Assembly: GCF_001747105.1 (NCBI RefSeq)
Contig: NZ_MDGQ01000003.1
Coordinates: 1,240,001 to 1,304,000 of the forward strand
DNA from: Roseivirga misakiensis
GTDB taxonomy: Bacteria; Bacteroidota; Bacteroidia; Cytophagales; Cyclobacteriaceae
DNA: 64,000 bases
Reading direction: 5' to 3'
Of this stretch, positions 23,632 to 42,153 are shown piece after piece. The notes under the pieces are model-generated. The model made no database searches. It saw only the letters and a program-made list of their open reading frames with translations, and was not told the DNA's origin. Position 1 is the first letter of the stretch. Each line of letters opens with the position of its first letter. Position numbers and translations under genes: made by a program.

Positions 23632-26600
23632 CTAATTCTTCTCTAACTTAACGGCAATTGCTTTTGCCTTAGCATTAAATTCAGGGGCATACATACTTTC
23701 TATTGTCGCGATTCCCGTCGAAAAGCTCCCGGCGTTATTTACGATAAGCTCGTATTCCACAACGTATTTTCCTTTCTTCAGTTCATCAAAGAAGAAGTGG
23801 ATGCTCGTATCGTCAATCGCCTGATAGGCATAAGCATTTCCAAAGCGTTTATAGCCAGATAAAACATCCATTGGCTCGAAACCAGCTGCACGGAGGTCTT
23901 TTAAATGTAAAAATTCCATGTCCTGATCTGCCGATAACGATAATCTAACTTTAACACGATCTCCTACTTTATAGGTGTGATTTGTTTGTTCCTGATAAGG
24001 TTCGTTAGCACCAATTTTAAATACCTCTTTTCGAACTTGAAGCGATCCACCACGCTGAGCTACATTTTCTAAGGATTCGAAATATTGGTAGTGCATAGCA
24101 CCCCAAGACGGGTTTGCTCCTTCATTTTTTACTTGAATTTGGGCTAAATCTGGTTGAATCTCCTCAGCCTTCCAGTCTTTCTGGGTGAATAGATCGGTTT
24201 TTTCATCTGTGGCAGTACTTATTTTATCATTCCCTACCTCGATAAACACGGCATTTTGCTCATTGACTACAGCGCCTTTCGAGTTCAACAGTGTGTAGAT
24301 CGCATCGGCTGTAGCTTTTGTGCTCGCCCAGGCATTGGCTCTTTTATTTTGAATCAACCATTGCATTAATTTTTGATGTCTTTTTTCATCAGGCAAGATT
24401 TCCGCAAAAGCTTCCATTATTCTGGCGTGTGTTTCAATTGGCATTTGGTACCAGTCAAAACTCGATTCATTTTCGAGCCAGTACATGCCGCGATCATTTT
24501 TAGTAGCATTCTCTTCTAAAGAGTTCATGATCTTTTTAGCCATTACAATATTTCCAGCGCGGTAATAAACGAGTGCAAGCATGGCTTTAGATTGCAAGTT
24601 TTGCTGTAGCCACTGATCTTCACCCATCTTCAAGAAATAAGCCTCGGCGTTTTTAATGTCCACGTTTGTCTTCAAGCTGTCATAGAAACTTTTTGCATAC
24701 AGTAAGTGAATTTGAGCTGTTTGTAGGTCTGCTTGCCTACTAGTGTCATTGGCCAGCTGTTTGTAGTCACTCACCAATACTCTGTCTAAATAACCTAGTG
24801 CTGAACCTATGATATCTTCAACTTTATAATTGTCGATGTCAACGCTTAGTTTTTTCATCTGCCCAAATCCAGCCACTACATGCATGGTTATGGTTTTATT
24901 CGGGTAACTACTTCCACTAAACCAAGGGAAAGCGCCACTAACCATTTGCATTTGGGATAGCTTATTTATGGCAATGTTAAGTCCCTCATCAACGGACGCT
25001 TTATTCAAAAGTCTTGATAGGTTTTTAAGCCGATCATCTTTGTTTTTGGCGTTTAAAAGCCATGGTGTTTCCTTTAATGCAATTGATTTAAGATTTTCAT
25101 TAGCAAACAAAGGCCCTTGTTTTTCGTCCTTCGACCACTTGGATATTAATTCCGATAGCGTTGGATGCTGCTCTACGAGTTTTCTGCCTATTGCATTTGC
25201 AAAGATTCGAGAGAAAGTCTGTTCACTGCATTCGTAAGGAAATTCGATCATGTAGGGCAGAGATTGCACCACATTCCATAAGGAGTTATTGGTGAAACCT
25301 AGGCTTAAGCTGTAATTCTCTTTAGTTTCTGAGGCTTTTTCAAGAGCATCGAGTTTGAATGCTTTTTCTTCGTTAGCGTTTACCCACATCGGCAAACTTT
25401 CAGTGATCATGACTTTGTTAGATAGTACAGGAAGGTAGTTTTCTTCGCCATCGCTGAAGCCGCCAGCAGTAGCTAAAACACGATATTTTATACCACTAAG
25501 CCCCGCTGGTACGCTAATTTTCCATTCCATTGCAGCATTTCCATTAGGTGCTATCTCGAAAGCCTTATCCATTCGATCACCTTTGATCAGAAGGTCAATT
25601 GGTTCGTTATTTTCAGGGTTGAGCCATTCTATTCTTGATACACCACTCGCTTTTTTTGAAAAAAGGCTAGCCACTTTTACAGAGACTATTAGTGTGTCTT
25701 TTTCTCTCACAAAGCGAGGAAAATTAGGCAAAACCATCAGTTTTTTCTGCGTTTGGACAGTGCTAACCAATTTATCCGTTAGCATTGATTTTGTGTGAGC
25801 CAGTAACTGTAAATTCCATTTGGTAAGTGACTCAGGCGTAGTAAAACTAAAGCTGAGTTCGCCATTTTTACTAGTTCTAAGCTGTGGATAGAAAAAGGCG
25901 GTTTCTTTGAAGTTTGTCCTACTTTTTACTTGGCCGAGTAAGGCTTCATTATCTTGTTGTGCTGCGGCCATACCCCCTTTGGTGCTAATGACAATGACTC
26001 CATTGGCTGCTCTTGAACCATAAAGTGAGGCCGCTGAAGCTCCTTTAAGCACTTCATAGCTTGCCGCCTCCTGAAGATTAACTTGGCTTAAGCCGCCTTC
26101 TACAATTACACCATCTACAATAATGAGTGGACTATCCGAGCCAGCCAGCGTTGATGCTCCTCTTATTTGAATTGGCGATCTAAAGCCAATTTGATTGCTT
26201 GGTTGAACTTGTACTCCTGCCACCTTGCCGGCTAATGCTTGATTGGTTACAGGAACCTCCATTAATGTTTCAAACTCTTCGTCATCGGCAACACTTATTA
26301 TTTCTTTGTTTTGTGGACTAAATGAAATATTCTGGTAGTTATTTTGACCTTCCCTAGGGTTAACAAAATTGTATCCAAAAAGCTCAAGCTTATAGAATGA
26401 TTTGTTGGGTATTCGGTATGGTTGGTAACGGCGAGATAATAAGGATTGAAGTATGTTTTTAGAATAACTTTGATTCAAATCAATATTGGCGCTACTATAG
26501 TTAGTCCTTGTCGGGCTGGATGGCAAATACCAATCATGTGTGACAAATTGATCAAGTGAGGCATCGTACATAGAGGCTAAGAGTTCAGCTTCGATTCGCT

Positions 26601-29600
26601 CACTTTCATCACCCTTTATTTTAAAACTCCACTCTTCCTTTTGCCCGGGCTCTAGTTTGCTTCGAAAAGATGTCGTTTCAATTTTGATAGTATGTTCTTC
26701 ATCAGGGACATTGATATCGAGTTTTCCATACTTGGCCATGCCTTCAGCTTGTGCTAAATAGTGGATTGTATAACCTCCAACATCTCTTGGCTTTATGGGT
26801 AAAGAAAGTAATCGTTCACCTTTACTAAGGTTAAAAATATACTCTTTGTTAATCTCCCCTCCTTGGTCTAAAAACAGGGTAACTGTTAGGAAATCGAGGC
26901 TTGAATACAGGCTAATCACCAAATTATCCTTATGTTGATAAGTATTTTTGTTCTGATTGATTTCGAAAACTGAATGACGATCCTTTTCAGGCTCTTTAGA
27001 TTTAATAAATAAGCTAAGAGAGGATTTTTGGATACTTTGGTCTGTAGTTTCGAAGATAATTTTATATGATCCTTTGCCCCATTGCTTACTTTCTTCGATT
27101 TTATAAATGTCGTCTATACTTGACAAAATGATTTTTGAGATCAATTTCTGATTTACCTCTGGATCTATTTGTTCATAAGGCTCATATGGGAAGCGTTTGG
27201 CAAAGTCCTCTTTACTGATTATTGGCAAATCTGGAGCTTTCCAGAGCCGTTCTTTGAGGTATTTCTCTTCGTCATCCAACTTATAGACAGATAGAATTCC
27301 AGGTCTCGAAATTTGTTGACCATTTAAGTTGGTTACTGATACCTTAAGAGAGATTTCTTTACCCTCTTCCACTTCGACTGGTGCCGATATGCTGGAACGG
27401 CCCTCATGATAACCTATGTACAGAGATTCCTCAAGGTTTCGCGTTTCACCATTGATATCTGTCACACTAGCACGCAGATCATACGAGAAAATAGGAAGCT
27501 TTTCGCGGTCTTCTGAGGCATTGCCACTAGCCTTAAATTTGATTTTGAACTGGCCCTTGTTATCAGTTTTAGTTTCGCCTTCGGCAAGTAGATATTCTTC
27601 CTGACTAGGATAAGAATAACCGAAAAAACCTTCATTAAGGCCAAGTCTATACCCGGTCCTTGTAATAGTATACTTTACTGTTGCGTTAGAAACATTGCTA
27701 CCCGCTAGGGCAACTGCACTTCCAGTAAATTCTACCGAATCACCTAACACATAGGCCTCCTTTATAGGATCACTTCGTAATTCGAACTTTGGTCTTTTAT
27801 AATTCTCAACACGGAAATATTTATCTGCGGCATTTAAATAAACGTTGGGTTGGTCGAAGAATTCACTCTCATTATCTGGCTCTTCCACCTCTATAGAAAA
27901 GTCACCAGTTAAAACGGACTTTGGAATCCTCAATGAGTCAGTAAAGGACCCAAACTCATTCGATCGAAGGTATTTTTCATAGATTTCGTCATAATTTTCA
28001 TCATAAACAGTAACTAAGACTTCCTCATTTGTTACTGTCGCCTGCTTTTCACTTTCGGTTTTGTAAAGGATGCCTTTAAAGTACATCATTTGCCCAGGCC
28101 TATAAATGGCCCGGTCTGTAAATAGATGAGCAGAAACAGTAATTCTACCGCTTTTCTGCGGTTTCGAAACCCTTGAAAGCCTTATATTTTGGAAGTAGGC
28201 GGTATCCAAAGCCGTCATTACTTTGGCCGTTAAGCCATAGCGATAATCATTAGAATTGTACCTGATTCTACCATTGTTGTTGGATTTGAATCGTCGATGG
28301 AATGGCTTTTGGTAACTATTATTGGTCGACTGAATAATTATGTCTGCGTTCGGTTCAGGTTGGCCTGTTTCGCGATCTGAAATGAGAAATTCATTAGTTG
28401 AAGTTGTCGGTAAACTGATGAATGTAAGATTGCTTACCTGAAAGATTCCAAAATGTAGTGGCTCTTCGCTACCTTCCTGTTTTACAACTAATAAGTATTG
28501 TCCATTTTCCGCCAAAGGGTCTATTAAGACTTCTGTGGCATGTCTTTGATAGTCTGAGACTTGTGGTAGGTCAATAGCCCACTTTCTGATAAGCTCTAAG
28601 GCTTCGAACTTTTTAGAGAACGGAGTTTTAGTGGGGACAATAAGCTGTTTCAGCTTGTCCATATTGCCCTTATATATCGAAAGTTCTAAGGACTTTAGGT
28701 TGGCAAATTCTACCAGTACTCTTGAATAGTTTGAAGGTATAATGAAGTCTTCATGGGTTAGCATAAGACTCGACTGCTCAATTGATTCTTTTAAGACATC
28801 TGCCTGTTTTGCTTCAAATGAATTCGGCTTGAGTCTAATGATATCATCGCAAATGTCGTGAGCAGATTTCTTTGCCCATCTAAACTGATCACCCTTGCGC
28901 TGGAAATTATACCTAGAACCAAGCATATTCAGCGTTTGCGCTTTTTCGAATAGGACTGTGACTTTGGTGGCGTCATCCAAGTCCTCCATCAACCTGTCCA
29001 AAGCTTCTAAATAGGCCGAAAGATCATTATTAGCTCTATTTTTAAGGAGCTTAAGCCTAAAAAGCTCCCAATTGACATACCTTTTTGTGTTTCCATTTGC
29101 CTTTTGGCGCAACAGTATTTTTTGGAGTTGTTTAAAACCGTGGTCAATGAAAGACTGACCTACCGGGGGATCGATTTTTAGATTTAGAAAGGCGATCGAG
29201 TTCCAATAATTTTCCAAAGTCGGAAGCCATGATCTTGATTTAAAGTCGCTGAGTTGTAAGTTGTAGAAGTAAAAACGAAAAGCCTGTTCAGCGATAAAGT
29301 CAGAAACCAATTCAATTTTCGGCTCTTCCACACCGACCCTTCGGAAAAATCCTCTGTAGGTATCGAGTCTTAGCGTATCGACTTTATCATAGTCGGCCAA
29401 GGCATTTTGATAGTATCGATGGATTTCGCTTTGAAATCTAGTTTTATTCCAAAAGTTGAAATCAACAGTATCAACTTTCGCTTCATCTCTTTGGTTGATA
29501 TCGTAGCTGTTCCTCAGGTAGAAGTCAAAAAGAGATTTAGCCGCAACCAGTTGATAAATACTTTTTTCAGGAGCACTTGCAGCACTTATTCGCTTCTGCA

Positions 29601-29874
29601 GGTTGTCCATAACCTTCAATCGGGCATTTTCTTCAAGCAATAACCAAAACTTACTTTGATAAATTGTCGCTTTCAGCAATTCTTCGGCGTCGGATTCTTC
29701 CGCTGCATTATTCAGTATTTCAAGGACTTTTTCTTGAGCAGATTTCGTCAAACCTTCTTTTTCGAAACGATAAACTTCTTGCCAGAGAGTATCATTCTTT
29801 TCAGCCTGAGCCCAGCCAATCATCGGTACGAAAAGGGCGATAATGAGAAGAAAAATTGGCTTGGTTGAAATCAT
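23632..29874 (-). CDS. Giant alpha-2-macroglobulin-family protein with an inserted TonB-receptor plug domain
   Basis: 2080 residues with a signal peptide ending at WAQA. Residues ~30-450 are helical and unassigned. MG-type beta-sandwich domains follow, including an MG2 signature (FTDRAIYRPGQMMYFKG, ~580-600). At ~1205-1300 there is a complete TonB-receptor plug of SusC/RagA type: KVAGVQV, IQIRGASTLAG, PLIIVDGV, VLKGASAASLYGSRAANGVIVISTKGG in pieces. The A2M core then continues with a thioester-type ECSEQ (C1549, Q1552; CxEQ as in bacterial macroglobulins), a helical TED domain and a C-terminal receptor-like domain. Bacterial A2Ms trap proteases in the periplasm, usually beside PBP1C; no such gene is adjacent here. 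The plug could dock to an outer-membrane partner (inference). Confidence 0.9.
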   Translation of the reverse strand: MISTKPIFLLIIALFVPMIGWAQAEKNDTLWQEVYRFEKEGLTKSAQEKVLEILNNAAEESDAEELLKATIYQSKFWLLLEENARLKVMDNLQKRISAASAPEKSIYQLVAAKSLFDFYLRNSYDINQRDEAKVDTVDFNFWNKTRFQSEIHRYYQNALADYDKVDTLRLDTYRGFFRRVGVEEPKIELVSDFIAEQAFRFYFYNLQLSDFKSRSWLPTLENYWNSIAFLNLKIDPPVGQSFIDHGFKQLQKILLRQKANGNTKRYVNWELFRLKLLKNRANNDLSAYLEALDRLMEDLDDATKVTVLFEKAQTLNMLGSRYNFQRKGDQFRWAKKSAHDICDDIIRLKPNSFEAKQADVLKESIEQSSLMLTHEDFIIPSNYSRVLVEFANLKSLELSIYKGNMDKLKQLIVPTKTPFSKKFEALELIRKWAIDLPQVSDYQRHATEVLIDPLAENGQYLLVVKQEGSEEPLHFGIFQVSNLTFISLPTTSTNEFLISDRETGQPEPNADIIIQSTNNSYQKPFHRRFKSNNNGRIRYNSNDYRYGLTAKVMTALDTAYFQNIRLSRVSKPQKSGRITVSAHLFTDRAIYRPGQMMYFKGILYKTESEKQATVTNEEVLVTVYDENYDEIYEKYLRSNEFGSFTDSLRIPKSVLTGDFSIEVEEPDNESEFFDQPNVYLNAADKYFRVENYKRPKFELRSDPIKEAYVLGDSVEFTGSAVALAGSNVSNATVKYTITRTGYRLGLNEGFFGYSYPSQEEYLLAEGETKTDNKGQFKIKFKASGNASEDREKLPIFSYDLRASVTDINGETRNLEESLYIGYHEGRSSISAPVEVEEGKEISLKVSVTNLNGQQISRPGILSVYKLDDEEKYLKERLWKAPDLPIISKEDFAKRFPYEPYEQIDPEVNQKLISKIILSSIDDIYKIEESKQWGKGSYKIIFETTDQSIQKSSLSLFIKSKEPEKDRHSVFEINQNKNTYQHKDNLVISLYSSLDFLTVTLFLDQGGEINKEYIFNLSKGERLLSLPIKPRDVGGYTIHYLAQAEGMAKYGKLDINVPDEEHTIKIETTSFRSKLEPGQKEEWSFKIKGDESERIEAELLASMYDASLDQFVTHDWYLPSSPTRTNYSSANIDLNQSYSKNILQSLLSRRYQPYRIPNKSFYKLELFGYNFVNPREGQNNYQNISFSPQNKEIISVADDEEFETLMEVPVTNQALAGKVAGVQVQPSNQIGFRSPIQIRGASTLAGSDSPLIIVDGVIVEGGLSQVNLQEAASYEVLKGASAASLYGSRAANGVIVISTKGGMAAAQQDNEALLGQVKSRTNFKETAFFYPQLRTSKNGELSFSFTTPESLTKWNLQLLAHTKSMLTDKLVSTVQTQKKLMVLPNFPRFVREKDTLIVSVKVASLFSKKASGVSRIEWLNPENNEPIDLLIKGDRMDKAFEIAPNGNAAMEWKISVPAGLSGIKYRVLATAGGFSDGEENYLPVLSNKVMITESLPMWVNANEEKAFKLDALEKASETKENYSLSLGFTNNSLWNVVQSLPYMIEFPYECSEQTFSRIFANAIGRKLVEQHPTLSELISKWSKDEKQGPLFANENLKSIALKETPWLLNAKNKDDRLKNLSRLLNKASVDEGLNIAINKLSQMQMVSGAFPWFSGSSYPNKTITMHVVAGFGQMKKLSVDIDNYKVEDIIGSALGYLDRVLVSDYKQLANDTSRQADLQTAQIHLLYAKSFYDSLKTNVDIKNAEAYFLKMGEDQWLQQNLQSKAMLALVYYRAGNIVMAKKIMNSLEENATKNDRGMYWLENESSFDWYQMPIETHARIMEAFAEILPDEKRHQKLMQWLIQNKRANAWASTKATADAIYTLLNSKGAVVNEQNAVFIEVGNDKISTATDEKTDLFTQKDWKAEEIQPDLAQIQVKNEGANPSWGAMHYQYFESLENVAQRGGSLQVRKEVFKIGANEPYQEQTNHTYKVGDRVKVRLSLSADQDMEFLHLKDLRAAGFEPMDVLSGYKRFGNAYAYQAIDDTSIHFFFDELKKGKYVVEYELIVNNAGSFSTGIATIESMYAPEFNAKAKAIAVKLEKN

Positions 29875-30716: not shown

Positions 30717-31064
30717 ATGAAAGGAACACAATTAGGAGAATTTGAAGAGCTAGTCCTATTGATTGTAGGTGTGCTCTTTCCCGAAGCCTATGGCCTAAGT
30801 ATTCGTGAAGAGATTATCTCGCAGACTAAAAGAAAAGTAGCTATTGGTGCGGTACATTCATCGCTAAGTCGGCTTCAAGAAAAGGGTTTTTTGAAATCAG
30901 AACTCGCGGAAGCTACCCATGAAAGAGGAGGTCGAAGAAAACGTCTTTTTACCATCACCGCCAATGGTAAACGAGCGCTAGAACGAAACCATGAGTTGCG
31001 CAATGAGCTATTTAATCAAATTCCAAAGATCGCATTAAAAGGACTCAACTTCGGTGGCATCTAG
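30717..31064 (+). CDS. PadR-family transcriptional regulator (PadR-1)
   Basis: 115 residues forming a PadR winged helix: GEFEELVLLIVGVL (helix 1), EAYGLSIREEI, VHSSLSRLQEKGFLKSE (recognition helix and wing) and RGGRRKRLFTITANGK. It lacks the long C-terminal coiled coil of the PadR-s1 type. It overlaps the following permease by 11 bp, so it is the first gene of the operon and probably represses it through the inverted repeat at 30663-30700. A second, closely similar PadR (36582) heads the next permease pair. Confidence 0.92.
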   Translation: MKGTQLGEFEELVLLIVGVLFPEAYGLSIREEIISQTKRKVAIGAVHSSLSRLQEKGFLKSELAEATHERGGRRKRLFTITANGKRALERNHELRNELFNQIPKIALKGLNFGGI

Positions 31065-33702
31065 TAAACTATACCACCCTCCAAAATTCGCTGATTGGAT
31101 TCTGAGGCGAGTCTGTAAAGGTAACCTGCTTGAGGAAATTGAGGGTGACTTATTCGAGCACTATCAAGTGCTGCGACAAGATTATCCAAAATGGAGGTCC
31201 AATGTCCTCTATTGGTTCCATATAATACATTTTTTAAGACCCTTTGCTTTAAAAAGGGTCGCTCAAATATCTAACAACACAATGATGTTCAAAAACTATT
31301 TAACAATCGCCCTGAGAAACTTTAAAAAGTATTCTCTCTATTCGTTCCTCAACCTTTCTGGTCTAGTGGTGGGGATCACTTCTTGCCTACTTATTTTTCT
31401 TTATGTCAGACAGGAATACAATGTAGATAGGAATTTTCCTAATGCTGAAAATATCTACAGAGTCGTTACCGACATGAAATTGGGAGACAGAGAGATTCAC
31501 ACTCCTACTGCTCCTGTAGTATTAGCGGAGCATATGATAAAAACTGTGCCTGAGGTAGAAAATGCAGCTCGTCTGATGCTTGGTCAATTTAATACGGTGG
31601 TCGACCTAGAAGAAAAGCAGATGCGGGTTTTTAATGTGACCTATGCTACCAGTGAATTACTCGATCTATTTTCCTTCTCTTTTGTGTCAGGAAATCCAGA
31701 AGGTGCTTTAGACGAACCCAAGACAATGGTCATGTCTGAAACTATGTCTGAACACCTTTTCCCAGGAGAAGATGCCTTTGGGAAAATAGTTACTTATAAC
31801 AGTGCTGACTTTATCGTAAAAGGGGTTTACAAAGACATGAGTGATAACGCACATTTCAAGTTTGATCTCATTATGTCTCATGCTTACCAGACAAGTAGAT
31901 ATGATTATGGATGGAACAACCTTAATTCCTATACCTATTTGAAGCTAAAGCCTGGAACAGACCCACTGCAAATAGAGTCAAAATTAAATGCAGCCCTCGA
32001 AACGCATATGAAGCCCCTGATGGAAGGTTGGTTTCAGGTACCTGCCGATGAGATCAATTCTGAGGGTAACCACGCACGATTTTATCTTCAACCTCTGGTT
32101 GATATTCACTTAAAATCTAACCTGCCCCGAGAGTTTCAGGCCAATGGAAGTATCGAAAATGTAAGAACAATCTCACTGATTGGCATCATCATTTTGCTTA
32201 TCGCAAGCATCAACTTTATTAACCTTAGTACCGCGCGTGCAGCGCTCAGAGCAAAAGAAGTAGGTGTTAGAAAGGTGATGGGCTCAGAACGCCGACAGCT
32301 TGTTACACAATTCTTGTTTGAATCAAGTCTCTACAGCTTTGTTGCATTTGTGCTTTCTGGTCTGCTGGCCTTTGTCACATTACCATACTTTAACCATTTA
32401 GCAGGTACCGATATGACGTTTAGCCTGGGAGGTACGACACCACTCTGGCTTGTCATGCTAATAGGTGCCCTGGTAATCGGCATAGTCGCGGGTTTTTACC
32501 CAGCCATTGTTCTTTCTTCATTTAATCCTGTCAAGAGTTTAAAAGGACAAGAAGTTAGAAGCGGTGGTAAAGCTTGGTTAAGAAGTGGGCTCGTTATTTT
32601 ACAGTTCTCCGTTTCAACGTTTCTGGCCATCTGTACCATTGTGATCAACAATCAATTGGATTACGTTTTGGACAAATCATTAGGTTTTGAACAGGATGAT
32701 TTGATCATTTTAGAGGTTATGGATTTAAATCGGTACGACCGAGGAGAAACTGCCATAATAAATGAGCTAGAATCAAGTCCAAATATCATTAGCTATAGCC
32801 GAACAGACTACATTCCAATTAATGGTTCCAGAGGGGAATATTATGTCGACAAGATTGACGAACAAGGAGAAATACAAACGGTGAATGCGCAAAGCTGGCC
32901 AATTAATGAAGCTTACATTCCTACCATGGGCATGGAAGTCATCAGAGGAAGAAATTATGAAAATGAACTGGCTTCGGATAGCAACGCAGTGATCATTAAT
33001 CAAAGTATGGCCCAGGCCTTACAAATGGAAGACCCAATTGGTCAAAGCTTACAATGGAAGGTCAACGGTAAAGTATATAATATGAGTGTGGTGGGGGTTG
33101 TGAAGGATTTCCATTACGGTTCTATGAAAGAGACCATCAAGCCACTCATGTTCTATAAAGGTTATGATCCATGGACCTTATCAGTAAAATTTTCTGGAAG
33201 CCCTTCTGAAGCCTTGTCAACATTGGAAGGCATATGGAGCGACCACTCTGGAGGGCAACCATTTATAGCACGACTAGCCAGCGAGGATTATAGAATGCTA
33301 TATCAAAAAGAGGGTCAACTGAAAGGGTTAGTCAATGCCTTCTCTACATTAGCAGTTCTCGTGGCCATTTTAGGACTAGTTGGTTTGGCATCTTTCATGG
33401 CGGAGCAACGCCAAAAAGAAATGGGTATTAGAAAGGTACTCGGAGCTAAGTCCATTCAGCTTTTTAGAAAAATGATTGCAGGTTTTACGGTATTAGTCGG
33501 CATAGCCTGTTTAATCGCTATACCTGTGGCAAATTGGGTAAGTAGCCAATGGTTAAGTGATTATGCGTATCGCATAGAAATAAGCCCAATGATCTATGTC
33601 ATGGCTTGCTTGATAATGCTAGTGCTGTCTTGGATAACGGTAAGCTTTCAATCGCTCAAAGTAGCAAATACTAACCCAATAGATAATTTAAGAACGGAAT
33701 AG
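31054..33702 (+). CDS. Orphan FtsX/MacB-like permease 1 with N-terminal permease-prefix domain
   Basis: 882 residues from a GTG inside the PadR-1 gene. Residues ~4-66 are a soluble prefix domain (YHPPKFADW, KGNLLEEIEGDLFEHY) seen in Bacteroidota and Acidobacteria permeases. Then come TM1 (~92-112), a MacB-type periplasmic domain, a three-TM FtsX block (~372-490; STARAALRAKEVGVRKVMGS), a second periplasmic domain and a second three-TM FtsX block (~755-870; EQRQKEMGIRKVLGA). Thus it is an internally duplicated FtsX protein. No ATPase gene is adjacent, as in the duplicated orphan permeases (ADOP) of Acidobacteria. Confidence 0.92.
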   Translation: MASSKLYHPPKFADWILRRVCKGNLLEEIEGDLFEHYQVLRQDYPKWRSNVLYWFHIIHFLRPFALKRVAQISNNTMMFKNYLTIALRNFKKYSLYSFLNLSGLVVGITSCLLIFLYVRQEYNVDRNFPNAENIYRVVTDMKLGDREIHTPTAPVVLAEHMIKTVPEVENAARLMLGQFNTVVDLEEKQMRVFNVTYATSELLDLFSFSFVSGNPEGALDEPKTMVMSETMSEHLFPGEDAFGKIVTYNSADFIVKGVYKDMSDNAHFKFDLIMSHAYQTSRYDYGWNNLNSYTYLKLKPGTDPLQIESKLNAALETHMKPLMEGWFQVPADEINSEGNHARFYLQPLVDIHLKSNLPREFQANGSIENVRTISLIGIIILLIASINFINLSTARAALRAKEVGVRKVMGSERRQLVTQFLFESSLYSFVAFVLSGLLAFVTLPYFNHLAGTDMTFSLGGTTPLWLVMLIGALVIGIVAGFYPAIVLSSFNPVKSLKGQEVRSGGKAWLRSGLVILQFSVSTFLAICTIVINNQLDYVLDKSLGFEQDDLIILEVMDLNRYDRGETAIINELESSPNIISYSRTDYIPINGSRGEYYVDKIDEQGEIQTVNAQSWPINEAYIPTMGMEVIRGRNYENELASDSNAVIINQSMAQALQMEDPIGQSLQWKVNGKVYNMSVVGVVKDFHYGSMKETIKPLMFYKGYDPWTLSVKFSGSPSEALSTLEGIWSDHSGGQPFIARLASEDYRMLYQKEGQLKGLVNAFSTLAVLVAILGLVGLASFMAEQRQKEMGIRKVLGAKSIQLFRKMIAGFTVLVGIACLIAIPVANWVSSQWLSDYAYRIEISPMIYVMACLIMLVLSWITVSFQSLKVANTNPIDNLRTE

Positions 33703-33713
33703 ACTGAACCTTA

Positions 33714-36362
33714 GTGGCATATAATCAACTATATCACCCGCCCAAATTCGCCGATTGGTTTCTGAGGCAAGTCTGTAAAGGCAACCTGCTTGAGGAAATT
33801 GAAGGGGACTTATTTGAGCACTATCAAGTCATTCGGGAAATGCATCCAAAATGGCGGGCAGATTTAGCCTATTGGTTTCATATGGTCAATTTTCTGAGAC
33901 CCTTTGCGCTGAAAAAAATCGGTCAAAACTCATCAACAATTATTATGTACAGAAGCTATTTTAAATTCACCCTACGTCACATGTGGCGTAAAAAATTAAG
34001 TACAAGCTTTAACCTAATTGGCTTAGTGTTGGCCTTTATGGTTTGCGGTTTTATTTACCTGCATTTACAGCAAGAATTGTCTTTTGACAAGTTTCATGCA
34101 AACTCAGAAGACATGTATCGAGTGGCATGGATGAATGATAATCCTCAAACACGAACGCCGCATCCTTTGGCCCAGGCAATGGTCAATGACCTGCCAGAGG
34201 TTGAATCCGCGGTAAGTCTTTCTCCGATCTATGGTGCTGGTCTCACCAAACAGTCAGTTACACTAACACTGGAAAAGGAGAATATCAGCTTTGCTGAGCC
34301 CAATGGTTACTTTGTTGACAGCACCTTCTTCGATGTTTTTGATTTTAAATTTCTAGAAGGAAACCCTGAAACTGCCTTGAAAAGTCCGTTCGGGGTGCTG
34401 CTATCAAAGTCCACAGCCAAACGCTATTTCGGTGATAAACCTGCTGTGGGGAGCAGGCTATCTTTTGACGTCAATACCGATATGTTGGAAGTTGTCGGTG
34501 TGGTAGAAGATGCGCCAAAGACGTCCCATTTTCATTACAATTTCCTTATCTCATATGTGACATTAAAATCACTCAATTTCAACGATCCTTGGATGTCTTG
34601 GGATGATTTTGGACACTTTAACTATGTAAAACTTAAAGCAGGTTCTGATCCAAAAGCCTTGGAAAACAAGATTCCTACATGGGTTCAAAATTATTTAGAT
34701 TGGTCTGATGAAGGTATCGAGTCACTAATCGCTGGAGAATATAAATTCGAATTACAGCCTATTGAAGATATTCATCTGCACTCCAATATTCGATGGGAAT
34801 TGGAGTCAAATTCGAGCTTCTCCTACTTAATTATTTATGGCGTATCTGGACTATTTATCTTATTGATTTCAATTATAAATTTTGTCAATCTCAGTACGGC
34901 CAGATCTGCAGAAAGGCTCAAGGAAGTCGGTGTAAAAAAGACATTAGGGGCTTACCGAGGCCAATTGCTATCTCAGTTTGTTTTCGAATCACTGTTCTCA
35001 TCATTACTTGCTTTGGCCATGGGCATATTTGCCATGTATGCGCTCCAAGATGCTTTTAACCAACTTGTTAATGGCCAAATCTTAGCCCAAGACATTTGGG
35101 AAACCAATTCCCTATTATTCATGCTTGGCGTTACGGTGATCACGGCAATTTTTGCGGCAGCCTACCCCGCCATCTATTTGAATGCATTGCATCCTGGTCA
35201 AATTTTGAAAGGAACTACTCAGAAGAAAATTGGTGGTGCTTTTGTGAGAAATACACTACTATCCGTACAACTGATTGCGGCCATTCTGATGGTCACAGGA
35301 AGTCTTATCATCAATGGACAGATCTCATTTTTGAAAAATAAAGATCTTGGATTTCAGCAAGATAATCTGATGGTTGTTGAACTTAGTAACTACGTCAATA
35401 AGTCCGAATTAATTAAAGAAGCATTCAGTAAACTTTCAGGTATAGCGTCAGTAGCGACCGTTTCTAACGTTCCAGGAGGGCAGTTCAATCAGCACAGTAT
35501 TTATGCCGAAAAAGACCCTTCTGTAAGAACTGATGCAGCGGAGGCTTTTATAGATGATGATGCACTTTCGGTTTTGGGCATAGAACTTCTAGAAGGTCGA
35601 ATGTTGGACGAAACTATTGCCTCAGACTCCTCTGGAACATCCTTTCTGATCAACGAAACCGCTGCGAAACAACTGAATTTATCGGATCCTGTGGGAGAAA
35701 CCCTTTTCTGGGAAGACAATGAGAATCTGGTAAAGGGCCGAATTGTTGGGCTAGTGAAAGACTTTCATTATAAATCTTTACATGTCCCGATCAGGCCGAT
35801 CATCATGATGGTTCAACCTCGTCGTTTGAATTACTTAATCGCTCAGGCCGATACCAAAGCCTTATCAACGTTGATTCCACAAATGGAGCAAACTTTTGGA
35901 GAGATTTATCCAGAAGATGATTTCAGGCTGACCTTCTTAGATGAGCAAATCGCCGAACTCTATAAAGAAGAGTCTAGAACGCTCTTACTCACTTCAATTC
36001 TTTCCGGTATTTCGATTTTTTTAGCAATCGCTGGATTAGTTGGCATTGTGTCGATAGCGATTAAGCAACGCGTCAAGGAGATCGGCATACGAAAAATCCT
36101 AGGGGCATCAGTGAAGGAAATTCTCATGTTGATCAACGGTCGATATGTCATCATCACACTGATGGCCTTAGCACTTGCACTTCCAGTATCTTATCTATCG
36201 ATGAATAGCTGGATGGAAAATTTTACTTATCAGCATGCCATAAACCCAATGGTATACTTGCTTACAGGCATGTGTGCATTGGTATTGATATTTATAACGA
36301 TTAGTGCAATCTCACTAAGAACAGTAAGGAGCAATCCTGCTGACGCGCTAAGAATCGAATAG
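33714..36362 (+). CDS. Orphan FtsX/MacB-like permease 2 with N-terminal permease-prefix domain
   Basis: 882 residues starting at GTG, 11 bp after permease 1. The prefix domain (~5-67) is almost identical to that of permease 1, while the rest has diverged considerably, which points to tandem duplication followed by divergence or prefix-domain conversion. It has the same layout of TM1, periplasmic domain, FtsX block (LSTARSAERLKEVGVKKTLGA at ~385-405), periplasmic domain and final FtsX block (VKEIGIRKILGA). It may form a heterodimer with permease 1 (inference). Confidence 0.92.
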   Translation: MAYNQLYHPPKFADWFLRQVCKGNLLEEIEGDLFEHYQVIREMHPKWRADLAYWFHMVNFLRPFALKKIGQNSSTIIMYRSYFKFTLRHMWRKKLSTSFNLIGLVLAFMVCGFIYLHLQQELSFDKFHANSEDMYRVAWMNDNPQTRTPHPLAQAMVNDLPEVESAVSLSPIYGAGLTKQSVTLTLEKENISFAEPNGYFVDSTFFDVFDFKFLEGNPETALKSPFGVLLSKSTAKRYFGDKPAVGSRLSFDVNTDMLEVVGVVEDAPKTSHFHYNFLISYVTLKSLNFNDPWMSWDDFGHFNYVKLKAGSDPKALENKIPTWVQNYLDWSDEGIESLIAGEYKFELQPIEDIHLHSNIRWELESNSSFSYLIIYGVSGLFILLISIINFVNLSTARSAERLKEVGVKKTLGAYRGQLLSQFVFESLFSSLLALAMGIFAMYALQDAFNQLVNGQILAQDIWETNSLLFMLGVTVITAIFAAAYPAIYLNALHPGQILKGTTQKKIGGAFVRNTLLSVQLIAAILMVTGSLIINGQISFLKNKDLGFQQDNLMVVELSNYVNKSELIKEAFSKLSGIASVATVSNVPGGQFNQHSIYAEKDPSVRTDAAEAFIDDDALSVLGIELLEGRMLDETIASDSSGTSFLINETAAKQLNLSDPVGETLFWEDNENLVKGRIVGLVKDFHYKSLHVPIRPIIMMVQPRRLNYLIAQADTKALSTLIPQMEQTFGEIYPEDDFRLTFLDEQIAELYKEESRTLLLTSILSGISIFLAIAGLVGIVSIAIKQRVKEIGIRKILGASVKEILMLINGRYVIITLMALALALPVSYLSMNSWMENFTYQHAINPMVYLLTGMCALVLIFITISAISLRTVRSNPADALRIE

Positions 36363-36458
36363 GGTAATATCTCAAACATATCAAACCCCAAGGTTTGCTG
36401 ATCCCCTGTTAAATCGGTGCCATAGATCCCCTGCTCTAGTGTTATTCTAAAATTTTTA

Positions 36459-36502
36459 ATCGCAGTGTAATGATTTCAATTTGAGATCGTCTACACTGCG
36501 AT
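36459..36502. promoter_or_regulatory. 11-bp inverted repeat upstream of PadR-2
   Basis: ATCGCAGTGTA (36459-36469) and TACACTGCGAT (36492-36502) are perfect inverted copies separated by 22 nt. It lies just upstream of the CTACATTTAG direct repeats. No T run follows, so a terminator is unlikely; an operator is more likely. Confidence 0.4.
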
Positions 36503-36507
36503 GTATT

Positions 36508-36568
36508 AAAACTACATTTAGGAATTTTTAATTTGACTTTCAATTATTAAAAACTACATTTAGGAATT
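36508..36568 (+). promoter_or_regulatory. Promoter with two direct operator-like repeats upstream of PadR-2
   Basis: AAAACTACATTTAGGAATT occurs at 36508-36526 and again at 36550-36568, exactly 42 bp apart (four helical turns). The second copy contains TACATTTA, 19 bp after TTTG (36532-36535): a near-consensus Bacteroidota promoter. The first copy sits just upstream of the -33. The CTACA core also occurs in the PadR-1 dyad. Repression by PadR-2 through these sites is an inference. Confidence 0.55.
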
Positions 36569-36581
36569 AAATCTTATTTGT

Positions 36582-36920
36582 ATGAAGAAATATCAGCTAG
36601 GAGAGTTTGAAGAACTGGTTCTTCTTACGGTGGGTGTACTTTACGGAGAGGCTTATGGTGTGGCCATAAAAGAAGAAATAGAGCAGCGCCATAACCGTAA
36701 AGTCTCCGTGGGAGCATTGCAATCTGCTTTGCGCCGAATGGAGGATAAGGGTTTTCTAGAGTCTGAATTTGGAGAAGCCACTAAGGCACGTGGCGGTAAA
36801 AGAAAACGCTATTTCAAAATCACGGCACACGGTAAAAATGCGCTAGATCATAATATTCAGACGAGGCTAGAATTATGGAATCAGATCCCAGATGTAGCCT
36901 TTCAATTTAAATTATGCTAA
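36582..36920 (+). CDS. PadR-family transcriptional regulator (PadR-2)
   Basis: 112 residues, clearly paralogous to PadR-1: the same GEFEELVLLTVGVL N-terminus, EAYGVAIKEEI, a recognition helix in VGALQSALRRMEDKGFLESEFGEA and the wing RGGKRKRYFKITAHGK. It overlaps the next permease by 7 bp. The two PadR proteins likely control separate permease pairs; whether they cross-regulate cannot be told from the sequence. Confidence 0.92.
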   Translation: MKKYQLGEFEELVLLTVGVLYGEAYGVAIKEEIEQRHNRKVSVGALQSALRRMEDKGFLESEFGEATKARGGKRKRYFKITAHGKNALDHNIQTRLELWNQIPDVAFQFKLC

Positions 36921-39496
36921 AAAAGTTTGGTCAAAAACTTATCCGCTTTTACTGCCACCCCGATTATCAAGAAGATATTATCGGGGATTTGGAAGAGTAT
37001 TTCGAGGTTCACAGCCAAGAAAGAGGGTTTCAGTATGCAAATCGAAAATTCTTTTGGGACGCACTATTGCTCTTCAGACTCTCACTACTCAAGGACAAGT
37101 GGTTTTCACAACAACTAATCAACATTCCAATGGTCAAAAACATATTTAAAACAGCATTTCGAGTATTCTGGAGAGAAAAGGGGTATTCCCTGATGAACAT
37201 TTTTGGGCTTACCGTAGGCATAGCAGCCAGTATGCTCTTATTACTATATGTCGAATCAGAAAAATCAGTTAACCAATTCCATCGAGATATTGATAATATT
37301 TTTCAAGTCATGGAGCATCAAACTTACCCGAACAGTGTGCGGACTTTTGATGATAATCCAGGGCCTTTAGTCACAGTTTTTAGTGATGAAATGCCCGAGG
37401 TAGAATATATGGCTGCTTTTACAAGGTCTCAGGAAATTCTGCTCAGCATAGACGATAAAGGCTATAAGGAGACCGGAATGTGGGCGAGTGAAGATTTCTT
37501 CGAAATATTCGATGTTGATTTCATCGAAGGTCAAAAGGAAAACTCGTTGACCGACCCATCGATGGTTTATATTTCAAGAAGTGTCAAGGAAAGAATTTTT
37601 GGATCGGAAACCGCCCTTACAAAAACGATAAATTTTGATGGCTGGGGTGATTATCAAGTTGCAGGTGTATTTGAAGATGTCCCTAGTGCTACGACTATCG
37701 ATTTCGATTTTATTCTACCATACCAAGTCTGGCGAGAAGTATTTACATGGGTGGAGTCATGGGACAATAGTGGCGTAAAAGGTCTTGCAAAACTTTCTCC
37801 AGGAACGGACGTCGATGCTTTTAACCAAAAGATTGCTGGATATATAAATGAAAAGATTCCAGGCCGAGATCACAACGTAACCATATTCTTACAACCGCTC
37901 AAGGACAGGTATCTTTATAACAATTTCGAAAACGGCTTTATTTCAGGCGGCCGAATTACTTACGCTAAACTACTTACGGCAGTAGCCTATTTTATCTTAC
38001 TCATCGCCATCATCAACTTTGTAAATCTGGCCACGGCTAGATCTACTAAACGGGCCAAGGAAGTAGGCGTAAAGAAGATAGTTGGTTCTACAAGAGGGTT
38101 ACTTCGGGCTCAATTTATGACGGAGTCTTTATTGTTAGCCCTAATTTCCACGGCTTTGGCAGGGCTGATTATCATGAGTGTGATTACACCGCTGAATATG
38201 CTAGTCGGGAAGAGTATGAGCTTCTCCGTTTCATCCATAGATCAAATGTCAAAGCTTTTGATTATTGGGCTGGGTGTTGGGCTATTGGCGGGCATATACC
38301 CAGCTCTTATCCTTTCAAGCTTTAAGCCCCTAAGCGTGGTAAAAGGGTCTTTTAAGTCTTCCGGTTGGTCTAATGGTATTCGTAAAGGCTTAGTCGTATT
38401 TCAATTCACTATTTCAACGCTACTGATTATTTCAACGCTAGTAGTTCGAAACCAGATGGACTACATTAAGAGTAAGAATTTGGGTTATAATAAAGAGCAC
38501 TTGGTGACGATTCCTGTTGAAGGAGCACTTCGCGATCAAGTAGTTCAAGCGCAATTCAAGTCCACAGTGCTTTCAAATAGCAATTTCAAAAATGTAAGCT
38601 TTTCTGGAGGAACACCCCTCAGCTTTTTCTCTTCGACCGATGCAGGCTTTTCTTGGGAAGGAAAAGTAGGAGAACTTAGTAATAAATTCCGCATCATCAA
38701 TACTGATGTTGACTTCTTCGATACCTATGGAATTGAGATTGTAAAAGGAAGGGGTTTTGACCCAGAACTAGCCACAGATACTCTGAATTATATTATCAAT
38801 GAGCAAGCGGCTGAAGCAATGAATGTGGAAGACCCTATTTTGCTGCCAGTTTCCCTATGGGGTAGCCCAGGTCGCATTATAGGCGTCGTAAAAGACTTTC
38901 ATTATAGTTCTTTACATGAAAAAATAGGGCCTATGGTAATGCCTTATCGACCAAACTACCCAACGGATCTTACGATTAAAATGACGGGCCAAAATGTGGT
39001 AGAGAGTATAGCCTATTTAGAAAAAGTAATGGCTGACATTAACCCAAGCTATCCGTTTGAATACAGTTTTGTCGATGTAGAATACGAGCAACTCTATCAA
39101 AACGAAGCTACAATTGGCACTTTGGCTAATTACTTCTCAGCCATCGCTATTTTTATTTCCCTGCTTGGACTGTTCGGCCTGTCCAGTTTTTCAGCTGATC
39201 AGCGAAGTAAAGAGATTGGGATTAGAAAGGTCCTTGGCGCAAGAGTATCTGATATTACCTTTCAGATATCTAAAGGCTTTTTAGTCTTGGTGGGTGTCGG
39301 CTTTGTGCTTGCTGCTCCACTTGGTTATGGTTTCATGAATAATTGGCTCCAGACTTTCGAGTATAGGACGCAAATTGGAGTCACTGTTTTTATCCTTTCC
39401 GCCTTTATTTCAATGTTTATAACACTTTTAGCGGTTAGCTACCATGCGCTCAAAGCAGCTTACACCAATCCAATTCAAAGTTTAAGGTCTGAATAG
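36914..39496 (+). CDS. Orphan FtsX/MacB-like permease 3
   Basis: 860 residues. The prefix domain (~1-70; QEDIIGDLEEYFEVH, corresponding to the LLEEIEGDLFEHY of permeases 1 and 2) is followed by TM1 (~97-117), a MacB-like periplasmic domain, an FtsX block at ~350-470 (LATARSTKRAKEVGVKKIVGS), a second periplasmic domain and a C-terminal FtsX block (DQRSKEIGIRKVLGA). It is closely similar to permease 4 along its whole length. No ABC ATPase gene is near. Confidence 0.92.
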   Translation: MLKKFGQKLIRFYCHPDYQEDIIGDLEEYFEVHSQERGFQYANRKFFWDALLLFRLSLLKDKWFSQQLINIPMVKNIFKTAFRVFWREKGYSLMNIFGLTVGIAASMLLLLYVESEKSVNQFHRDIDNIFQVMEHQTYPNSVRTFDDNPGPLVTVFSDEMPEVEYMAAFTRSQEILLSIDDKGYKETGMWASEDFFEIFDVDFIEGQKENSLTDPSMVYISRSVKERIFGSETALTKTINFDGWGDYQVAGVFEDVPSATTIDFDFILPYQVWREVFTWVESWDNSGVKGLAKLSPGTDVDAFNQKIAGYINEKIPGRDHNVTIFLQPLKDRYLYNNFENGFISGGRITYAKLLTAVAYFILLIAIINFVNLATARSTKRAKEVGVKKIVGSTRGLLRAQFMTESLLLALISTALAGLIIMSVITPLNMLVGKSMSFSVSSIDQMSKLLIIGLGVGLLAGIYPALILSSFKPLSVVKGSFKSSGWSNGIRKGLVVFQFTISTLLIISTLVVRNQMDYIKSKNLGYNKEHLVTIPVEGALRDQVVQAQFKSTVLSNSNFKNVSFSGGTPLSFFSSTDAGFSWEGKVGELSNKFRIINTDVDFFDTYGIEIVKGRGFDPELATDTLNYIINEQAAEAMNVEDPILLPVSLWGSPGRIIGVVKDFHYSSLHEKIGPMVMPYRPNYPTDLTIKMTGQNVVESIAYLEKVMADINPSYPFEYSFVDVEYEQLYQNEATIGTLANYFSAIAIFISLLGLFGLSSFSADQRSKEIGIRKVLGARVSDITFQISKGFLVLVGVGFVLAAPLGYGFMNNWLQTFEYRTQIGVTVFILSAFISMFITLLAVSYHALKAAYTNPIQSLRSE

Positions 39497-39570
39497 AGTA
39501 GCGTGCAGAAAGGGATTCAACATATCGCGTCAGAGATAATAAGTCAGGTGAAATCACTAGAAATCGATCT

Positions 39571-42153
39571 ATGCTAAAAAAAGTTGGTCAAAAGCTTATC
39601 GGTTTCTACTGTCATCCAGATTATCAAGAAGATATCATCGGCGATTTAGAAGAATACTATGAACTCCATAGTAAGGAGAGAGGAATTCGCTATGCCAATA
39701 GAAAGTTCTTTTTGGATGCGCTATTACTCTTCAGGCTCTCTCTTCTCAGAGATAAATGGTTTAGTCAACAATTAATCAATATACCCATGGTCAAAAACAT
39801 TTTTAAAACAGCATTTCGTGTATTCTGGAAACAAAGGGGATATGCTGCACTCAACATTTTAGGGCTCACTATTGGCATAACAGCCAGTATGCTTTTGTTA
39901 CTTTTTGTTCAATCGGAAAGATCCATAAATCAGTTCCATACCGATATAGATAACATCTATCAAGTGATGGAACACCAGACTTACTCTGGCTATAGTTACA
40001 CTTACGAGTCGAACCCGGGCCCTTTAAGCGACCATTTCAAACAAGATATGGCCGAGGTAGAATACATGGCCGCGTTTACTTGGGTAGAAGAGCGCCTGTT
40101 TAGAATAAATGGTCAAAGTTATAAAGAGGGAGGTCGCATGGCGAGCGAAGACTTTTTCAAAATTTTTGATGTCAAATTCATCGAAGGGGTAAAAGAAGGT
40201 TCGCTAACAGACCCAACGAAGCTTTACCTTTCTAGAAGTACCAAAGAACGAATTTTTGGAGACGAACCAGCCTTGGCAAAAACGCTACAAGTCGATGGAT
40301 GGGGAGAGTATCAAGTGGCAGGTGTTTTCGAAGATGTTCCGGAAGAAACCACCATCAACTTTAACTTTATAATGCCATATGAACCATGGAAAGCCCGTAA
40401 TGATTGGCTCCTGGACTGGAGTAACAATGGAATTAGAGGGATTGCCAAATTACAGGCTGGCGTTGATTTCGAGGCCTTCAATAAGAAAATCGAGAACTAT
40501 GTGTCAGAGAAACAAGATGGTGAGGAGTCGGTAGTAACACTCTTTGTACAACCCTTTGGCGATCGGTATTTATACAATAATTATGAAGATGGAAAGCTAG
40601 CAGGCGGGAGGATAAGTTATGTTCGGTTACTCACAGTAGTTGCATTTTTTATCTTGATGATTGCAGCCATTAATTTCATGAATTTAGCCACGGCCAGGTC
40701 TACAAAGCGTGCGAAAGAAGTTGGGATTAAAAAGGTCGTTGGTTCATCTAAATTTTATCTATTGCTCCAGTTTATGGCCGAATCCATACTTCTGGCGACG
40801 GTTTCAACGATTATTGCGGGCCTATTAATCATGTTGGTTTTACCACCGCTTAATACGCTCGTAGATAGATCGATGACTTTCTCATTTACCCAACTAAATC
40901 ATGTTGGACTGCTACTAAGCATTGGAGTCGGTATCGGGTTTTTATCAGGTCTATATCCATCATTTGTATTATCAGGATTTAATGCCCTAAGTGTGTTAAA
41001 AGGCACATTTAAAACTTCTGGTTGGTCAAATGGACTCAGAAAGGGGCTGGTAGTTTTTCAGTTTGTTATTTCTACCATTCTGATTATTTCTACCCTGGTG
41101 ATTCATAATCAAATGACCTTTATTAGAAATAAGAACCTGGGTTATAATAAAGAAAACGTCGTCTATTTTAGCGTGGAGGGAGCGCTTTCGGATTTAAATA
41201 CACGAGAAATGCTCAAACAGAGAATTCTTGATAATCCGAACTTTTTATCGGCAACTTATTCAAATGGATCTCCATTAAGTGTTGGTTCATCAACATCAGG
41301 TGGGTTTTCTTGGGAAGGCAAGGTCGATCAAAACCAAACCAATTTTTATATCATTCGAGCGGGTCACGATTTTGTGGAAACTTATGGTCTAGATGTTATC
41401 CAAGGCAGGTCGTTTGACAAAGCCTTGTCCACCGACACTATGAACGTGCTGATCAATGAGCAAACAGCAAAATTGATGAATGTGGAAGACCCACTGGGCG
41501 TACCCATCACTTTTTGGAACCGTACGGGTAGAGTCGTCGGTATCGTAAAAGACTTTCACTTTAGTTCGTTGCATCAAAGCATAGAACCGCTTGTTATAGG
41601 CCTAAGGCCTGAAGATAGCCAAGTATTTAGTGTAAAAATGACAGGCCAAAATGTGAAAGAGAACGTAGCATTTTTGGAAAAGACGGTAAAAGAAATCAAT
41701 CCAAATTACCCGTTTGAGTATAGCTTTTTGGACGAAAGTTTCGAACGATTATACAGAAGCGAAAACACGATTGGTACCCTAGCCGATTACTTCTCATTAA
41801 TTGCCATATTCATTTCGCTATTGGGGCTTTTCGGTTTGGCTAGTTTTGCTGCTGAACAGCGCATCAAAGAAATTGGTGTGAGAAAAGTGCTCGGTGCAAG
41901 TATTGGAAACCTTTTGATGCTCATGACCAAAGGCTTTATGGTGCTGGTCGGTTTGGGTTTTCTCATTGCCGCGCCAATCGGATACTATTTCATGGATAAC
42001 TGGTTGAATGCTTTTGAATATAGAGTGGATATAGGGCCTTCAGTTTTCATCATAGCGGGCTTGGCATCTCTCATCATTACGGTGTTAACTGTAAGCTATC
42101 ACTCTTTGAAGGCGGTTCATGCTAATCCTGTAAACAGCCTTAAATACGAGTAA
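39571..42153 (+). CDS. Orphan FtsX/MacB-like permease 4 (tandem paralogue of permease 3)
   Basis: 860 residues, the same length as permease 3 with long shared stretches (for example the prefix domain, LATARSTKRAKEVGIKKVVGS and GWSNGLRKGLVVFQF), so it arose by tandem gene duplication. The gap to permease 3 is 74 bp with no terminator, and it ends at a strong bidirectional terminator. All domains are intact, so both copies are probably functional. Differences are concentrated in the periplasmic domains, which may diversify ligands (inference). Confidence 0.92.
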   Translation: MLKKVGQKLIGFYCHPDYQEDIIGDLEEYYELHSKERGIRYANRKFFLDALLLFRLSLLRDKWFSQQLINIPMVKNIFKTAFRVFWKQRGYAALNILGLTIGITASMLLLLFVQSERSINQFHTDIDNIYQVMEHQTYSGYSYTYESNPGPLSDHFKQDMAEVEYMAAFTWVEERLFRINGQSYKEGGRMASEDFFKIFDVKFIEGVKEGSLTDPTKLYLSRSTKERIFGDEPALAKTLQVDGWGEYQVAGVFEDVPEETTINFNFIMPYEPWKARNDWLLDWSNNGIRGIAKLQAGVDFEAFNKKIENYVSEKQDGEESVVTLFVQPFGDRYLYNNYEDGKLAGGRISYVRLLTVVAFFILMIAAINFMNLATARSTKRAKEVGIKKVVGSSKFYLLLQFMAESILLATVSTIIAGLLIMLVLPPLNTLVDRSMTFSFTQLNHVGLLLSIGVGIGFLSGLYPSFVLSGFNALSVLKGTFKTSGWSNGLRKGLVVFQFVISTILIISTLVIHNQMTFIRNKNLGYNKENVVYFSVEGALSDLNTREMLKQRILDNPNFLSATYSNGSPLSVGSSTSGGFSWEGKVDQNQTNFYIIRAGHDFVETYGLDVIQGRSFDKALSTDTMNVLINEQTAKLMNVEDPLGVPITFWNRTGRVVGIVKDFHFSSLHQSIEPLVIGLRPEDSQVFSVKMTGQNVKENVAFLEKTVKEINPNYPFEYSFLDESFERLYRSENTIGTLADYFSLIAIFISLLGLFGLASFAAEQRIKEIGVRKVLGASIGNLLMLMTKGFMVLVGLGFLIAAPIGYYFMDNWLNAFEYRVDIGPSVFIIAGLASLIITVLTVSYHSLKAVHANPVNSLKYE

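Follow-up and report, generated by a model that had tools for sequence, protein, structure and literature searches.

The window, a 64,000-nt stretch of the Roseivirga misakiensis genome, contained an alpha-2-macroglobulin (A2M) gene at 23632..29874 on the minus strand, on which all features given below also lie; its open reading frame of 2080 aa was free of stops. The N-terminus read as a Sec-type signal peptide (about residues 1-23, 29806..29874; cleavage site inferred), and no lipobox cysteine was seen in the sequence near it. Pfam searches recovered MG2 (residues 582-669, 27868..28131; PF01835, 4.1e-16), the MG7 region as the A2M domain (residues 1325-1403, 25666..25902; PF00207, 3.4e-14) and a C-terminal bMG10 (residues 1945-2065, 23680..24042; PF17973, 1.1e-30), in that order. 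The thioester motif CSEQ (residues 1549-1552, 25219..25230), which the earlier note had correctly located at C1549, was the sole CxEQ of the protein and lay in a helical region of the predicted model; the only other cysteine was residue 342. The bMG10 domain contained ESMY (residues 2059-2062), which fits the EXMY pattern. Judged by these sequence features, the protein is a type I (thioester-type) bacterial A2M. EXMY is a motif with a role in E. coli A2M; its exact form was present in only 6 of the 90 proteins of group A, the relatives described below, some of which were incomplete. When the predicted model was searched with Foldseek, the A2Ms of Salmonella and E. coli were the top matches (4u48, 4u4j and 5a42 at ranks 1-3, 4ziq at rank 6). 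The overall A2M fold was recovered (4u48: 5.4e-37, prob 1.00); the TM of 0.29 and rmsd of 22 over the chain indicate that the domains were placed differently.

A SusC/RagA-type plug occupied residues 1193-1293 (25996..26298) according to Pfam, where PF07715 scored 48.7 bits, above its cut-off of 23.9 (1.2e-12); our own HMM matched it at 3.7e-39. TIGR04056, the NCBIfam SusC/RagA model, covered residues 1207-1307 (1.4e-32), and the TIGR04057 SusC signature at 1272-1299 scored above its cut-off. A PDB search matched residues 1202-1305 to SusC 8aa4 (2.2e-16). Since the Pfam, NCBIfam and PDB matches agreed, a chance match was rejected, and the plug is genuine. The embedded plug proposed in the earlier note, its limits of about 1205-1300 and its expected match to PF07715 were thus borne out. 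The TIGR04056 match spanned model positions 111-212 of 981, and the outer-membrane barrel was absent from the window protein, which explains why its 113 bits stayed below the whole-protein cut-off of 368. A motif search of the bait segment found no TonB box. In the AlphaFold model, pLDDT was below 50 for residues 1138-1233 and about 80 for the plug's second half. Directly before the plug, residues 1178-1192 (26299..26343) resembled the last part of an NTE (CarboxypepD_reg-like) domain when aligned with the Roseivirga relative L083; this stretch is short and suggestive only.

The plug sits in the bait segment, which alignments placed at residues 1112-1318 (25921..26541), after MG6 and before MG7; this sharpens the broad and correct earlier placement between the MG domains and the thioester region. 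In insert-free relatives, the sequences flanking the segment aligned with those before and after the bait of E. coli A2M; with human A2M, the alignment covered the stretch directly following the bait. In two relatives in which Pfam recognised the bait-region domain PF07703 (L031 and L174), that domain ended before the insert and PF00207 began after it. Among the 72 of 90 proteins examined, 67 of 68 NTE or plug matches fell in the bait segment, which makes up 10% of residues, and insertion at random A2M sites was therefore rejected; the remaining match, in L054, was weak and NTE-like. The bait region is described in an excerpt of PMC4498604 as the part of A2M that proteases cut to spring the trap.

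SusC-derived domains were present in the bait of 46 of the 90 relatives (23 with NTE and plug, 13 with plug, 10 with NTE) and always came from the pre-barrel part of SusC; TIGR04056 matched 53 of the 90 bait segments. The other 44 relatives had neither domain, which shows that the family can do without the cassette. The earlier note had taken homologues without the plug as a sign of a one-off insertion. Such homologues exist, but the insertion is not a one-off because a complete or partial plug was present in 36 of the 90, and SusC-derived bait domains also occur in two more A2M families. An assembly artefact was likewise rejected, as the same architecture recurred in many genomes. When the four cassette states were mapped over the 90 proteins, the fewest changes required were 19; after shuffling, the mean was 40.8. 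The recurring neighbour genes were the same whatever the cassette state. As a separate observation, NCBIfam BamP matched 16 of the 90 bait segments.

The window plug was 62% identical to a SusC encoded in the same genome and at best 51% identical to the 38 other A2M plugs compared, with bit scores of 122 (SusC) and 86 (best A2M plug), which suggests capture from the resident SusC pool. In the tree it grouped with four SusC plugs of its own genus (95/90); this tree held 14 of the 31 other plug matches of the genome, and its family SusC plugs had been chosen for likeness to the window plug. AU tests did not reject a grouping of the window plug with the Roseivirga plugs (p-AU 0.18) and rejected one of all group A plugs only at p 0.049. 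A recent capture is thus not firm from these sequence comparisons.

We tentatively favour, at a little short of an even chance, the reading that the insert is a changing bait or decoy cassette, derived from SusC/RagA, in the bait region of a protease trap. The bait region has been enlarged by the pre-barrel, periplasm-facing part of SusC/RagA (NTE, TonB box and plug), of which the window protein keeps the plug. The cassette would work as bait or as part of it: proteases entering the periplasm would cut the plug, which has no barrel, is partly disordered and lies in a long flexible linker, and a cut there would free the MG6-MG7 tether, expose the thioester and lead to capture of the protease. 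The retention of CSEQ and ESMY in the window protein was counted for the bait reading. The cassette reproduces the side of a major outer-membrane transporter class that faces the periplasm, and for that reason it may also be a decoy for proteases attacking these transporters. Trap bait does not explain L202, a short protein that has MG2, lacks a thioester domain and carries half a plug before an MG7-like end.

Alternatively, the inserts may be neutral hitchhikers: in this view insertions are tolerated in the bait, SusC genes in Bacteroidota genomes often act as donors, and the fragments that arrive have no function and decay. Many members contain scraps, or plugs cut down to profile positions 44-123 or 1-46, which is consistent with this, as is the frequently faster divergence of cassettes than of the A2M body (L126 and L098 were 64% identical in the body, 23% in the NTE and 29% in the plug). 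Weak constraint is also indicated by plug dN/dS values of 1.10 (L126/L098), 0.88 (L114/L119) and 0.73 (L077/L123) at dS 0.8-1.1, although these are distant pairs in which the alignment of diverged inserts is unsure. By contrast, dN/dS for NTE and plug was 0.03-0.28 in three close Tenacibaculum pairs and 0.18-0.26 in L099/L061 and L099/L058 (NTE) and L063/L068 (plug). The synonymous divergence of the Tenacibaculum cassettes was low; conversion from resident SusC was not supported as its cause, the resident SusC proteins of three Tenacibaculum genomes being at most 62% identical to the query NTE and at most 44% to the plug half. Further evidence against hitchhiking is that the recognised bait domains were nearly all SusC pre-barrel parts across three A2M families, and that RG, DG, YG and the G of NGV were invariant or nearly so in 28 aligned A2M plugs. 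This is also more conservation than a disordered bait would need. On balance, we consider neutral hitchhiking somewhat unlikely.

Docking to TonB is a little less probable still. The TonB box and plug would let the A2M bind periplasmic TonB, so that the trap is placed at the entry of foreign proteins or TonB pulls the bait. The TonB box of SusC is given as VDEVVV for Bt1763 in an excerpt of PMC7782687. Among 86 of the 90 members measured, an LxEVVV-like motif was found in 14 of 22 with NTE and plug, 8 of 10 with NTE only, 3 of 13 with plug only and 8 of 41 without either domain, compared with 0.0-0.4 per group expected from shuffles. However, it was absent from 53 of the 86 and from the window protein, and its survival may simply reflect a location between two domains that are lost. 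No SusD- or TonB-like family occurred among the 18 largest recurring neighbour families at 66 related loci, and none of the 16 other ORFs scanned in the window, out of 35 with a length of 150 aa or more, had a SusD or TonB domain; a linked SusCD or TonB operon was thus not seen among the ORFs and neighbour families examined. The docking idea may stay applicable to relatives that keep the box. The proposal of the earlier note, that the plug tethers the trap to a SusC barrel or blocks it, is very improbable for the window protein: plugs normally fit barrels and the genome has 31 other plug matches, but there was no other plug gene in the window, the first half of the plug was predicted without confidence, many members keep only part of it, and transporters have plugs of their own.

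Returning to the bait or decoy cassette, its broadest form would make these proteins integrated decoys in Bacteroidota protease traps, in which a bait copying the SusC periplasmic face is renewed from resident SusC genes and the trap is sprung by transporter-attacking proteases or imported protein toxins. We regard this form as unlikely; if it holds, bacteria would have their own equivalent of integrated-decoy immunity. In plant NLR receptors, integrated decoy domains are copies of possible targets within a defence protein and vary between relatives, and the putative decoy here resembles them by analogy only. Complement C3, C4 and C5 carry an anaphylatoxin domain close to this MG6-MG7 junction and are likewise thioester proteins with an added domain where activation takes place; the window insert differs in being an unrelated domain with no known convertase. 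The determinants of protease range and the defence targets of bacterial A2Ms are poorly known, and a transporter-part bait that differs between close relatives offers, within a single gene family, naturally occurring versions (none, NTE, plug, both) for direct tests of bait function and target. The earlier note named no studied role for an A2M with a plug, and among the matches listed in open PMC papers we found neither such a role nor the combination itself.

Compared with SusC/RagA transporters (Bt1763, RagA), the window protein shares the plug, and its relatives also share the NTE (PF13715) and TonB box, arranged as in the transporters, whereas the barrel is missing; SusC domains thus occur without a barrel inside another protein family. 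With the type I A2Ms of E. coli (ECAM/YfhM) and Salmonella (SaA2M) it shares the MG chain, the bait before MG7, the CxEQ thioester and bMG10; unlike them, it has no lipobox and no adjoining PBP1c gene and carries a SusC plug in the bait. Being an inner-membrane lipoprotein is a feature of E. coli A2M, not seen in the window protein, that we do not hold to define all A2Ms. The same genome encodes a separate classical A2M (L046), without a plug, whose gene adjoins a transglycosylase/transpeptidase gene.

The comparisons showed that the protein encoded by ORF 23632-29874 on the minus strand combines the anatomy of a thioester alpha-2-macroglobulin (A2M) with a cassette derived from SusC at its bait site, and that this cassette varies among relatives. 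MG2, TonB plug, MG7 (the Pfam A2M domain) and bMG10 were each detected over the Pfam cut-offs in its 2080 residues. The SusC/RagA signature (NCBIfam) was present and the best solved relatives of the plug in PDB were SusC chains (e.g., 8aa4 and 5t3r), bearing out an earlier note that had described an A2M with an embedded SusC/RagA plug. The only CxEQ motif lay at C1549, where the same note had put the thioester. The N-terminus looked like a signal peptide and had no lipobox. In alignments with relatives, the plug fell between the MG6 end (YDASLD) and the MG7 start (NFKETAFF). A profile of 27 insert-free relatives aligned with E. coli A2M on both sides of the insert site, weakly on the MG6 side, and with human A2M, whose bait limits we take to be 690-728, just after the site. 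PF07703, the bait-region domain, ended before the insert in the relatives L031 and L174 (at 1116 and 462), and PF00207 started after it (at 1434 and 844). Because the flank alignments and these domain borders bracket the insert, the plug is placed by sequence in the A2M bait region. According to PMC4498604, the disordered bait of E. coli A2M includes residues 923-942, within the stretch matching the insert site when chain numbering is converted to that of the paper as we infer it.

In relatives, the insert corresponded to the entire SusC portion before the barrel, namely the PF13715 N-terminal extension (NTE), TonB box and plug; PMC7782687 gives the order in SusC Bt1763 as NTE, TonB box VDEVVV, then transporter. 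Group A comprised 90 proteins, 81 from 80 named loci (the best 80 of at least 564 relatives) and nine of the window family, window included; the distant group B, pieces of two genes and shorter duplicates of genes already represented had been removed from the 106 initial ORFs. With our own HMMs (threshold 1e-4; L109 set manually to both, the L054 NTE left uncounted), 44 proteins had neither domain, 23 both, 13 the plug only and 10 the NTE only, shares that should not be read as natural frequencies, since the loci had been ordered by similarity to the window protein. The earlier note had taken plug-less homologues as a sign of a one-off insertion; such homologues were common, but the plug or part of it was found in 36/90 group A proteins and the plug also in two further families, so the insertion was not a one-off. 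Of the 90 bait segments (the MG6-MG7 stretch), 33 had a PF13715 match and 27 a PF07715 match in Pfam, independent of our HMMs, and TIGR04056 matched 53. Other domains there were NCBIfam BamP in 16 (best 5.8e-10), CooC_C in four (best 8.6e-6) and two more Pfam families in one each. The bait segment, with 10% of residues, held 67 of 68 NTE or plug matches with E < 1e-3 in the 72 of 90 proteins examined. Three group A proteins (L100, L107, L115), whose records carry the names of other phyla, had no cassette. A SusC TonB-box-like motif was seen in the bait segments of 8 of 41 measured members without NTE or plug (L064, L059, L084, L066, L078, L108, L079 and L038).

A domain-architecture search, as the earlier note had proposed, recovered the combination in at least 15 of 296 genomes of the phylum (Bacteroidota, judging by the named relatives), the window's included, where a match to a plug-plus-MG7 profile spanned its two parts within a single frame of about 2000 aa; at least 36 further A2M-size frames matched only from profile position 71-104 on. 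When the 14 non-window genomes were re-read, the plug was confirmed in all 14 and the NTE in nine. Group B consisted of seven A2M proteins of 1624-2049 aa, one of which (L045) is cut off by a contig end, with a plug at the corresponding place, and the third family, group C (L173 and L174, about 1500 aa each), carried an almost complete SusC plug in the bait region; these 9/9 plugs reflect selection, both groups having been found through plug matches. L173 and L174 had a TonB-box-like stretch ahead of the plug (EVVVVGYG and EVIVVGYG). No description of an A2M with a SusC plug was found in the top-ranked open PMC literature, and the domain pair may well have been entered in databases already.

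The four states needed at least 19 changes on a body tree (FastTree, bait columns removed), compared with a shuffled mean of 40.8, gain and loss being indistinguishable on it. Close relatives differed: Algibacter L085 carried the NTE and L066 only scraps of a plug and a TonB box, and their bodies were 90% identical. Among recurring neighbour families (66 loci, 15 kb; the 18 largest listed), the large ones at least flanked all states alike and looked like housekeeping genes (e.g., mpl, obgE and adk, named from their sequences). In 17 pairs, several with dS not computable for some part, the cassette often diverged faster than the body, except in the Tenacibaculum trio, L111/L103 and, for the plug, L001/L083. 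Close pairs had a low cassette dN/dS (0.03-0.28 in Tenacibaculum), and plug dN/dS was high in some distant pairs (0.73, 0.88 and 1.10 at dS 0.8-1.1). The NTE and plug of the trio (L114, L056, L109) had a dS of 0.12-0.27, far below the 0.48-0.82 of the body, possibly indicating cassette exchange between species.

We tentatively favor the cassette as bait or decoy in a protease trap, at slightly less than an even chance. The cassette would be cut as bait, the cut would trigger trapping as in E. coli A2M, and its likeness to transporter parts may give it a decoy role. Neutral hitchhiking, which accounts for the truncations and the fast change, is rather unlikely and fits less well with the near-exclusive use of SusC parts across several A2M families; dS was unsaturated in the pairs with high dN/dS, a point on the neutral side. 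Docking to TonB competes for members bearing a TonB box, a motif of this kind occurring in 33 of 86 measured group A members, but none was found in the window protein bait segment. The suggestion of the earlier note that the plug could tether the trap to a TonB-dependent transporter, or block one, was judged very improbable.

AlphaFold modeled window protein residues 881-2080 (83 sequences) with a mean pLDDT of 78.9 and a pTM of 0.64. The pLDDT was below 50 over residues 1138-1233, which cover the linker and the first plug half, and about 80 in the second plug half. The model of a Roseivirga relative (pTM 0.47) had a folded NTE (85-90), a disordered TonB-box stretch and a second plug half at about 75. 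The top Foldseek matches were the A2M structures of Salmonella and E. coli, their TM-scores over the whole chain being low.

In the body tree, the window protein was sister (support 100) to L083 of Roseivirga pacifica, a protein with both NTE and plug. The window plug was 62% identical to an own-genome SusC and at best 51% to 38 other A2M plugs, and joined four own-genus SusC plugs in the plug tree (95/90, bootstrap not settled). Among 39 A2M plugs, the top-scoring match was a further A2M plug for 26 and a SusC for 13, the window plug having the widest margin of the 13; AU tests were weak (0.18 and 0.049). That a resident SusC was the source, by capture or conversion, is only suggested, because the family SusC set had been selected by similarity to the window plug and no more than 14 of 31 own-genome plug genes passed our HMM. 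A scrap resembling an NTE end precedes the plug; therefore, two histories are equally likely, a new insertion and an older cassette that has lost its NTE. In G057, a genome of the same genus, the plug occurred only in SusC-size frames, among the matches listed.

The own genome gave 32 plug matches, one being the window gene, and two A2M matches. The second A2M, L046 (C5:2472000-2481000), was of the classical E. coli type (bMG3, bMG5, bMG6 and bait-region domain) with a lipobox-like start as read from sequence, no plug by our HMM, and a PBP1c-like transglycosylase/transpeptidase gene placed after it. In the own genome, short MG2 proteins with an MG7-like end and no thioester domain occurred at L202 (4199-6775 and 1800-4193), one with half a plug before that end (4.7e-9) and its neighbor with a weak plug trace (0.006), and as a plug-less tandem of three at L201 (10896-19302). 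The SusC with the plug closest to that of the window protein lies in L201 as well. In the window, four consecutive ORFs of 860-882 aa (31054-42153), of which all three tested were MacB/FtsX-type permeases, were followed by a C39-peptidase ABC exporter (42210-44393).
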